Assembly: GCF_000745185.1 (NCBI RefSeq) | Contig: NZ_JQNJ01000001.1 | Span: 4,136,501 to 4,200,500 of the forward strand | Length of the DNA: 64,000 nt | Source of the DNA: Muricauda sp. MAR_2010_75 | GTDB taxonomy: Bacteria > Bacteroidota > Bacteroidia > Flavobacteriales > Flavobacteriaceae | Reading direction: 5' to 3' | In this document: positions 53,592 to 60,800 of the stretch, piece after piece | Position numbering within the stretch: the stretch's first letter is position 1 | How the letters are laid out: every line of letters starts with the position of its first letter | Position numbers and translations under genes: made by a program | The notes under the pieces: generated by a model | The model's input: only the letters and a program-made list of their open reading frames with translations | Database searches by the model: none | What the model was told of the DNA's origin: nothing

Positions 53592-53684
53592 ATGTCGCAT
53601 CGAGCGCAGTCGAGATGTGCCTTAAAGGTTCTCGACTCCGCTCGAACTGACAATTCACTTTACCTTTTATTCCTTCATCGTAGT
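53592..53684. repeat. REP-like element in a 92-base direct repeat, copy 1
   Basis: Palindrome arms GTCGCATCGAGCGCAGTCGA-GA (53594-53615) and TCTCGACTCCGCTCGAACTG-AC (53630-53651). The similarity to copy 2 (55624-55714) continues through CAATTC.CTTTAC to TATTCCTTCATCGTAG. This includes a degenerate copy of the last codons of the M20 amidohydrolase gene. It starts directly after the methyltransferase stop. Confidence 0.9.
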
Positions 53685-55623: not shown

Positions 55624-55714
55624 ATGTCAAATCGAGCGCAGTCGAGATGTGCCTCAAAGGTTCTCGACTCCGCTGGAACTGACAATTCTCTTTACTCTTA
55701 TTCCTTCACCGTAG
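55624..55714. repeat. REP-like element in a direct repeat, copy 2
   Basis: Palindrome arms GTCAAATCGAGCGCAGTCGA-GA (55626-55647) and TCTCGACTCCGCTGGAACTG-AC (55662-55683), about 90 percent like copy 1. The repeat runs into the last five codons of the M20 amidohydrolase gene, whose stop is at 55698-55700. Confidence 0.9.
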
Positions 55715-57812: not shown

Positions 57813-60800
57813 ATGATCCATTTTTTTGGGGACAAGGCTACCAAGGTTTTTGCCGTCCAGACTACTCAGGAAATCACTAAGGAAGATAATGAAAAATTAA
57901 CATGGTTGTTCGGCAACCAACCCAAGATAGAAGCGGCGTCACTCGACGCCTTTTTTGTTGGGCCACGTGCCGCCATGGTCACCCCATGGAGTACCAACGC
58001 CACCGAGATTACCCAGAACATGGGCATTGCCGGAATTATTCGGATTGAGGAATTCCATGCCGTTGTGGAAGACTTTACGGATTACGATCCCATGCTCTCC
58101 CAAAAATACAAGGGATTGGGACAAGATATTTATACCATCAACATCGTCCCAGAACCCATTTTGGAGATTGAGGACATTGCCGCCTACAACCAAAAGGAAG
58201 GTTTGGCTTTGAGTGATGAGGAAGTAGCCTACCTAGAAGGGCTTGCCCAAAAATTGGGACGTAAGTTAACGGATTCTGAAGTATTCGGTTTCAGTCAGGT
58301 GAATTCGGAGCACTGCCGCCATAAAATTTTCAATGGCACCTTTATTATAGATGGGAAAGAGATGCCCTCTTCCCTATTCAAATTGATCAAAAAGACTTCC
58401 GAGGCAAATCCAAACGATATCGTTTCGGCCTACAAGGACAATGTGGCCTTCATCAAAGGACCAAAAGCCATTCAATTTGCACCAAAAAGTGCCGATAAAC
58501 CGGATTTTTACGAAGAAAAAGAATTTGATTCAGTCTTATCCCTCAAAGCCGAGACGCATAACTTCCCCACCACCGTGGAGCCTTTCAACGGAGCTGCGAC
58601 GGGTTCCGGAGGGGAGATTCGAGATCGTTTGGCCGGTGGAAAAGGCTCATTGCCCTTGGCGGGAACCGCTGTATACATGACTTCGTATTCTCGATTAGAG
58701 GCAAACCGACCTTGGGAAAAAGGGATGGCGGAACGTGAATGGCTCTACCAAACCCCAATGGATATTTTGATCAAGGCCTCCAATGGAGCATCCGATTTTG
58801 GAAACAAATTCGGGCAACCACTTATCGCGGGTTCGGTGCTTACATTTGAACATGATGAGTCAAAAGATATCTCGACTGCGCTCAATATGACACCTCGAAA
58901 ATTAGGCTTTGACAAGGTGATCATGATGGCCGGAGGAGTTGGTTACGGAAAAACCGACCAAGCCTTAAAGGACACGCCCAAAAAAGGAGACAGAATAGTC
59001 GTTCTAGGTGGGGATAACTATCGCATCGGAATGGGTGGTGCAGCCGTTTCCAGTGCCGATACAGGAGAATTTAGTGCTGCTATAGAACTGAATGCCGTAC
59101 AACGTTCCAACCCCGAAATGCAAAAAAGAGCTTCCAATGCTGTTCGTGGACTGGTGGAAAGTCATGATAACCCTATCGTTTCCATCCATGACCATGGCGC
59201 TGGAGGACACCTCAACTGCTTATCGGAATTGGTGGAAGAAACCGGAGGCAACATCGATACCGACAAATTGCCCATCGGGGACCCTACCCTTTCCAAAAAA
59301 GAACTGATTGGCAACGAATCCCAAGAACGTATGGGATTGGTGATTGGTGAAAAAGATCTGGATTTGTTGGATCGTGTGGCAGCTCGTGAGCGCTCTCCCA
59401 TGTACAATGTGGGTGAGGTCACTGGTAATCATAAATTCACCTTTGAATCCCACAAATCCGGTGAAAAACCAATGGACTTGGAACTTTCGGATATGTTTGG
59501 AAGTTCACCTAAGACCATAATGGATGATAAATCGGCCCAACAAACTTATCCGCCCCTCTCCTATTCCTTGGAGCATTTCCATGAGTATTTGGAGCAGGTG
59601 CTTCAGTTGGAAGCGGTAGCCTGCAAGGATTGGCTCACTAATAAGGTGGACCGATGTGTGGGCGGGCACGTGGCGAAACAACAATGTGCTGGTCCCTTAC
59701 AATTACCCTTGAACAACTGCGGGGTAATGGCCTTGGATTTTAAAGGCAAGGAAGGTATTGCCACCACCATTGGGCATTCGCCAGTTTCCGCTTTAATTGA
59801 CCCTGTTGCGGGAAGTAGAAATAGTGTGACGGAATCCTTGACCAATATGGTTTGGGCACCTTTAAAAGAGGGATTGAAATCCGTTTCGCTATCCGCCAAC
59901 TGGATGTGGCCCTGCCGCAACGAAGGCGAGGATGCACGTTTGTACAAGGCGGTGGAATCCTTGTCGGATTTTGTCATTGAATTGGGCATCAACGTGCCCA
60001 CCGGAAAGGATTCGCTTTCCATGAAACAAAAATATAAGGATGGTGAGGTGCTGTCCCCTGGAACTGTAATTATTTCGGCAGCAGCACACTGCGATGACAT
60101 CACCAAGGTAGTGGAACCTGTCCTTCAAAAGGATGGAGGTGACATCTATTACATCAACATTTCCAAAGACAGTCATAAATTAGGCGGTTCTTCCTTTGCC
60201 CAAATATTGAATGGCATCGGAAATGAAACACCTTCCGTTTTAGAGGCTGATTATGTAAAGATCGTTTTCAATACACTTCAAGGATTGATTAAAAACAATC
60301 AAATTTTGGCAGGTCACGATGTAGCCTCAGGTGGATTGATCACGACCCTTTTGGAACTCTGCTTTGCAGACAATGATCTTGGCGCCCAACTCGATTTGAA
60401 CGACATTGGAGAATCCGATAGCATTAAACTATTATTTTCTGAAAATGCCGGGCTCGTTTTCCAAGCTAAGGATGCGTCCGTTGAAAACATATTGAACGAT
60501 GCCGGGATTACATTCCATAATATAGGTAGTGTCGCTTCGGAGAGCACGCTCAGTATCAAAAATAATGGGGTAGAGATTGGACTGAACATTGCCTCACTGC
60601 GTGATACATGGTTCAAAACCTCCTTTTTGCTGGACAACAAACAGACTTCCCACGGACTGGCCAAAGACCGTTATGATAATTACAAAAATCAAGCTCTGAA
60701 CTACAATTTTCCGGAAGATTTTACTGGAAAGCTCCCGTTGGCTTCGACTCCGATCAGCCAACGACCCAAAGCTGCTATCCTTCGCGAAAAAGGAAGCAAT

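Follow-up and report, generated by a model that had tools for sequence, protein, structure and literature searches.

The DNA analysed here, hereafter the window, is a stretch of 64,000 nucleotides (positions 4136501-4200500) of the 4.42-Mb single-contig genome of Muricauda sp. MAR_2010_75. The window contains purL, whose product scores 1461 bits against NCBIfam NF003672 (cut-off 783) and matches domains PF13507, PF02769, PF22689, PF18072 and PF18076 (Table 1). Translation of positions 58845-58910 gives FEHDESKDISTALNMTPRKLGF, in which codon 350 (S) begins at 58860, confirming both the coordinates and the frame of the sequence-only reading, which had described a REP-like half-element read in frame inside purL. 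The segment, site s3, lies between the linker domain (residues 122-171) and the AIRS_C domain (residues 390-544). Within it, the core spanning codons 352-360 is a copy of a multicopy palindromic repeat that probably lies mostly between genes. Specifically, this core has one mismatch to a 24-mer pattern having one free position, while the minus-strand copy at 55625-55648 has none to the same pattern. The pattern, with up to three mismatches, matches four times in the window and never in 100 dinucleotide shuffles. The two 24-base copies differ at 2 of 24 bases, and for this reason the 20-of-22 match reported earlier between the purL segment and the element at 55626 holds for the 22-mer used there. 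Site s4 carries a second, decayed repeat that the sequence-only reading missed; it occupies codons 977-982 (ASTPIS), just ahead of the glutaminase domain (Pfam match from residue 984), and PurL of relatives has intact cores at this site.

Table 1. Features of the window that bear on the repeat copies in purL
Feature	Position	Strand	Basis
purL, phosphoribosylformylglycinamidine synthase, 1235 aa	57813..61520	+	Open reading frame, open throughout
Site s1, residues about 34-39, no repeat in the window's purL	57912..57929	+	PurL alignment
Site s2, residues about 296-299, no repeat in the window's purL	58698..58709	+	PurL alignment
Site s3, codons 350-361, SKDISTALNMTP, net +10 residues versus the short allele	58860..58895	+	PurL alignment and translation
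Repeat core ATCTCGACTGCGCTCAATATGACA, family A, sense	58869..58892	+	Pattern search
Site s4, decayed second repeat resembling family B, one mismatch to GCTTCGACTCCGCTCAGC	60741..60758	+	Pattern search
Intergenic inverted pair, family A (reference element of the sequence-only reading)	55625..55675 (arms 55625-55648 and 55663-55675)	- and +	Pattern search
Second inverted pair, family A	53593..53652 (arms 53593-53616 and 53629-53652)	- and +	Pattern search

Family A has the pattern (N)TCTCGACTGCGCTCGA(N')nTGACA. With up to two mismatches allowed, it matches the genome 34 times, against no match of the reversed control pattern; for family B, TTCGACTnCGCTCA, there are 27 matches (control 0). Covariation was analysed in the 30 of 34 family-A copies with a fetched locus. 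The stem pair N/N' is complementary in 29 of these copies (shuffle mean 9.3, maximum 20 in 10,000), with AT in 12, TA in 9, GC in 4, CG in 4 and TT in 1, and the next outer pair is complementary in 27. The foot TGACA (TGTCA on the opposite strand) is present in 21 of the 30. Across the genus, the exact 16-mer core has 1,297 copies and is found at least once in 66 of 71 genomes, the reversed control giving zero in all of them. Like REPs, the family is short, multicopy and dispersed, and it is an imperfect palindrome with conserved pairing at the covarying pair. The hairpin base of family A carries neither GT[AG]G nor CGTC; because its foot is TGTCA instead, we use the term REP-like. The copies in the window's purL are single halves and do not have the two inverted halves with a spacer that define a REPIN. 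Single-strand folding of four typed examples was no better than that of shuffles, and GC skew and copy orientation gave no clear replichore signal. Inverted pairs of a minus-strand family-A copy and a plus-strand family-B copy, with starts 30-44 bases apart, recur in the genome (G000:C1 643603/643633, 647534/647564, 728041/728071, 1185394/1185433, 1470592/1470636 and 2481829/2481873).

We compared PurL across the genus Flagellimonas/Allomuricauda, in which it was found in 71 of 71 genomes and read in 70; the protein of G048, a fragment from residue 398, was left out of the 70, and L001, a duplicate of the window's own purL, was left out of trees and counts. The long s3 loop with the repeat is present in 8 of the 70 (G000, the genome of the window, and G035, G040, G033, G041, G019, G042 and G007), while 59 have exactly 10 residues fewer. 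The longer loop suspected by the sequence-only reading is therefore real, and so is the insertion, although its net size is 10 rather than the proposed 12 residues (350-361). As for the remaining three genomes, the insert of G053 is a separate repeat in the opposite orientation (VTERSRSDK), that of G054 has the carriers' length but is not repeat-like, and G061 has two additional residues. Relative to the best-scoring solved chain, 9n9w, the window's PurL has about nine extra residues at s3. The flanking residues differ between the alleles (QEEA or EEEA versus DESK...TP), and the exact insertion points therefore cannot be fixed. An AlphaFold model of PurL residues 1-600 built from 50 sequences has a mean pLDDT of 55, falling to 23-38 in the ten-residue blocks of 301-370, so that it is unusable at the loop and we base no structural claim on it.

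Beyond these genomes, 80 named PurL proteins include 16 titled Flagellimonas, Muricauda or Allomuricauda, of which 13 are short at s3, and 64 from other genera, of which 43 are short and 21 longer. A few of the 21 longer loops contain a repeat core, and most have no recognisable one. Because short loops prevail in both groups, the short s3 loop is probably ancestral, as judged from this unrooted comparison. In a homolog search that listed close relatives only, the insert is present in 17 of the 120 nearest listed protein clusters, counting that of the window's PurL, and absent from 103; the carriers include Allomuricauda ruestringensis DSM 13258 and Flagellimonas amoyensis. The eight genus carriers are themselves rich in the repeat, each holding 18-47 exact cores (median 39.5), as compared with a median of 12.5 in the 62 others (G048 left out; relatedness uncorrected), so the same residues were not found in repeat-free relatives.

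Site s3 is one of four length-variable PurL loops that we read (s1-s4). Together they make up 6.1% of the sequence, yet 34 of the 35 repeat cores found in PurL of the genus lie in s2-s4. Specifically, the 35 cores occur in 28 of 70 genes, with 25 at s4, 7 at s3, 2 at s2 and 1 elsewhere (G023). The cores occur in both orientations, in several frames and from different families, with four combinations of orientation and frame at s4. At s1, G043, G047, G038 and G003 carry ACPELVSG, which derives from a different palindrome (family C); at s2, G019 and G049 have a repeat-derived EDPFDSAQG/E, and G038 a degenerate form. In a set of 81 PurL proteins (own plus the 80 named), 14 proteins contain a total of 18 cores. 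As read from their listed positions, every one of these lies at s3 or s4, and the records concerned include Maribacter, Cellulophaga, Hanstruepera and Croceitalea. Two further differences were seen in the purL alignment: a 6-column gap at columns 974-979 in four genus PurL, outside s1-s4 (alignment ends set aside), and, in L011 and L277, a linker at s4 in which PSPLGGGREG replaces the usual sequence and possibly derives from yet another repeat.

PurL is not the only host. In the genome of the window, 5 of the 30 family-A copies lie within identified conserved genes, namely PurL, ArgS, HemW, Mfd and a BioF-like gene; the other 25 were checked for long open frames alone. We read ArgS, HemW and Mfd in the 30 best-scoring of the 71 genus genomes each and found one main loop per protein in which the repeat, its orientation or its absence varies by species. 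The ArgS loop holds the repeat or a decayed form in all 30, in 21 sense and in 9 antisense, by our own regex classes, of which sense includes decayed copies. HemW has the repeat in 20 and lacks it in 10; in three of the 20 (L179, L189 and L194) the repeat centre itself contains another palindrome (CCTGCCTGCCG...), which adds seven residues in frame. The Mfd loop contains family A sense in 7 genomes, a family-B inverted pair in 9, family C in 8, family A antisense in 3, a family-A pair in 2 and nothing recognised in 1, and a few further cores lie nearer the gene start. As a separate observation, the ArgS of the window's genome (L148, G000:C1:640265-642370) has about 100 extra residues, its frame being 702 residues versus about 592 in most of the genus; within the genus G013 and G046 alone match across this stretch in one piece, while four other-genus genomes match it in two pieces (frames 661-710).

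Between the window's genome and its sister G044, 3 of 21 in-frame indels of at least four residues contain a repeat (PurL twice, MtaB once), the other 18 having none under a regex for families A and B and one form of C. Repeats thus do give rise to indels, but to a small share of them overall, and these are concentrated in certain loops. This comparison covered 657 ortholog pairs and 178,306 aligned residues. In both species a gene resembling the methylmalonyl-CoA mutase small subunit (O449, from an 800-kb set of the window's genome, and S210 in G044) also contains family-B-like cores, and PrmC of G044 has two cores. In 13 repeat-poor genomes (1-4 exact copies each, 30 copies in all), we judge that six copies fall within real genes. 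Two of them are in ArgS (G005 and G022), one is in Mfd of G053, as judged from its position, and three are in other genes. The ArgS loop of G005 is three residues longer, and its copy looks like a separate insertion.

We next consider how well the copies are conserved. At fourfold sites within the repeat, argS is identical in 258 of 278 comparisons, hemW in 330 of 330 and mfd in 24 of 24, while identity in the flanks is 46-67%. The carriers for these counts were picked by intact amino acids, and the set therefore favours young copies. Synonymous conservation in purL, argS and hemW starts and stops close to the repeat edges. Read without amino-acid selection, the 20 filled HemW alleles include, beside perfect and single-mismatch copies, three with three to five mismatches and three with the nested insert. 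The ArgS sense class is off at 44 of 513 bases (L167 and L171, one residue shorter, left out), and the antisense class is more decayed and looks protein-conserved in places.

The distribution of the copies, in states assigned by our own regexes, was mapped on a concatenated tree built from 9,942 columns that include the ArgS loop and parts of other loops; it covers the 48 genomes that contribute two or more of the four genes. On this tree Mfd requires 11 changes (shuffle mean 17.4, 0 of 200 shuffles as low), PurL s3 at least 4 (shuffle mean 7.5, 0 of 200) and HemW at least 6 (shuffle mean 8.5, 8 of 200). ArgS orientation shows no phylogenetic signal there, with 8 changes against a shuffle mean of 8.0 (132 of 200).

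That s3 is ordinary protein sequence, its codons resembling the repeat by chance or through convergent codon use, is very improbable. The resemblance covers about 24 bases only, some PurL inserts are not repeat-like (that of G054 and those of several other genera), and some ArgS antisense alleles keep SSAVETS while their codons drift, as under protein constraint. The counts nevertheless already contradict such an origin: codon-shuffled purL yields a mean of 0.1 cores per 70 genes (maximum 2) against the 35 observed, so that the frequency inside purL is far above chance; fourfold sites among 7 purL carriers are identical in 78 of 78 comparisons within the repeat, against 351 of 760 in the flanks; and orthologous loops hold the repeat in opposite orientations. 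An error of sequencing or assembly as the source of the long loop has negligible probability and is likewise already contradicted, as the loop is found in separate genomes and protein clusters from several sources and the frame runs through it; we found no point in its favour.

The readings that accept a repeat differ in how the copies came to be distributed. One ancient insertion per site, kept by selection on the DNA (or on DNA and protein) and made patchy by losses and in-place flips, is a history that we take seriously while leaning against it. The tabulated carriers have one stem pair per site (A:T in purL, G:C in argS, C:G in hemW), which speaks for one inherited copy per site and not for overwriting from a pool, and thus also weighs against gene conversion from the genomic repeat pool, a process that may contribute. 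Likewise, when filled HemW alleles are recognised by a motif that lies downstream of the repeat and outside it, 11 of the 20 have no mismatch in 24 bases and 3 have one, with gene-wide fourfold identity of 0.43 among 11 carriers, and the ArgS sense copy of G022 is off the consensus at 1 of 27 bases despite only three exact cores in that genome. Against a single ancient insertion, decayed copies are common (the ArgS antisense class; PurL of G035), and of the 21 other-genus ArgS loops that a regex could read among 30 fetched loci, 20 have no repeat; we know of no DNA-level function of these repeats. Homologous recombination that carries repeat-bearing and repeat-free alleles from one species to another is rather unlikely in our view. 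It would account for the repeated changes of PurL s3 and HemW on the 48-genome tree and for the fact that filled and empty HemW alleles also differ downstream of the repeat. However, the numbers of changes stay high on trees of short flanks (ArgS orientation, loop-free tree of 25 flanking codons per side, 7 against 7.9 in shuffles; HemW, 8 against 8.7), and synonymous differences reappear a short way outside the repeat. A transferred tract would need to be little longer than the repeat itself. As the sole cause of the patchiness, allele exchange is unsupported for ArgS by the flank tree. Of the processes considered, no single simple one yet reconciles the near-perfect DNA conservation of some coding copies with patchy presence and changes of orientation.

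Our preferred reading, to which we assign a probability of about 0.87, is that the purL copy is a single half of a REP-like palindrome of Bacteroidota and that, in some lineages of the genus, it entered PurL in frame at a loop that tolerates changes in length. Three lines of evidence argue for insertion: multicopy hairpins that covary, presence and absence among close relatives, and the same loops holding different repeats, orientations and frames by species. Set against a clean insertion, there is no clean empty site, the flanks differing between alleles. Also weighing against this reading are the RAYT search without a match in this genome, the foot that is not GT[AG]G, single strands that fold no better than shuffles, the 18 repeat-free indels relative to G044 and the 21 longer other-genus s3 loops, most of them with no recognisable core. 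The half-copy would have entered the s3 loop and been tolerated rather than useful, with selection probably retaining only insertions that are in frame and within loops. The mover may have been single-strand (RAYT/TnpA-REP type) or similar machinery, since lost or unrecognised in this genome. The proposal of the sequence-only reading that a mobile palindromic repeat was captured by purL in frame is thus supported as the best reading in its capture part, through presence and absence and the covarying hairpins, and was in this respect right but understated; present-day mobility finds no such support, as no RAYT was found.

A search for Y1/RAYT transposases (PF01797) gave no match in the window's own genome at E 1e-3, a threshold that divergent enzymes could escape. 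A PF01797 gene is present in 13 of the 71 genus genomes, and a regex search up to about 1.5 kb each side of the fetched Y1/RAYT-like loci of relatives found none of these repeats. RAYT as the present mover was rejected on these two grounds. The RAYT-like genes of relatives include L134-L141, L143, L144 and L146.

A bolder extension, which we put forward tentatively and think more likely wrong than right, is that certain loops of Flavobacteriaceae housekeeping enzymes are standing docking sites in which repeats are repeatedly replaced by other families and flipped, always in frame, and that the argS copy is a micro-cassette invertible in place. The argS alleles are exactly 39 bases long in 9 of 9 antisense and 19 of 21 sense cases, and when bases 5-34 are inverted in place, sense and antisense alleles agree on average at 26.2 of 39 bases instead of 19.1, identity within the two classes being 28.3 and 31.5 of 39; the orientation shows no phylogenetic signal, as noted above. 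If true, selfish hairpins would provide core enzymes with a self-renewing reservoir of loop sequences.

The insertion can be compared with several known systems. Rickettsia palindromic elements reportedly lie in frame in protein genes and leave them unbroken; RPE-1 type elements are longer and occur in obligate intracellular bacteria. The window's purL copy is similarly an in-frame coding palindrome, shown to be one by relatives without it, but the coding copies here are about 24-30 bases and, in PurL, single halves. The likeness to Rickettsia elements drawn by the sequence-only reading therefore stands as an analogy, in that the copy works like an RPE, and not as membership.

According to Di Nocera et al. 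2013 (PMC3733652), GTAG/CGTC REPs are read in frame in housekeeping genes of free-living bacteria, tRNA synthetase and repair genes among them; in two Xanthomonas species recB carries a REP at about the same site, and the authors suggest that intragenic REPs may act as flexible linkers or loops. The elements described there and ours are alike as short palindromes in frame in housekeeping genes, but the window's family has a TGTCA foot without GT[AG]G, a TCGA-n6-TCGA stem with a bulge and a different host phylum, and here the same loops were followed over 30-70 species, among which the repeat family, its orientation and its very presence change. PMC6006769 reports REP insertions within tnpA-REP genes (subclass 2.4) and a Bacteroidetes subclass 2.6 with atypical structures. 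Its in-frame coding REPs and its Bacteroidetes repeats without a GT[AG]G foot are matched here, whereas our hosts are housekeeping enzymes and no RAYT-like gene lies beside the repeats in the fetched loci. With REPINs (PMC3116915, PMC8049555), the intergenic inverted half-element pairs (55625-55675) are shared; the PurL copies differ in being single halves, while Mfd of some relatives holds pairs.

As intragenic in-frame REPs are documented in free-living bacteria (PMC3733652), in tnpA-REP genes (PMC6006769) and in Rickettsia, the kind of event seen in purL is already known. The literature searched contained no report on REP-type repeats in Flavobacteriaceae housekeeping genes or on changing repeats in one loop, which is weak evidence of absence because subscription papers were mostly beyond its scope. 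As far as this literature goes, what is new compared with the known systems is a Bacteroidota family in core enzymes, with repeats that turn over from species to species while the loops stay the same. Where conserved Bacteroidota enzymes differ in a loop, the difference can be repeat DNA, a caution for alignments and trees. Furthermore, the same enzyme loops without a repeat, with different repeats or with either orientation form a natural many-species series. With it, two long-standing questions become testable, one being whether the capture of selfish palindromes contributes to the evolution of protein loops, the other whether repeats of the REP type undergo movement, conversion or inversion at their sites.
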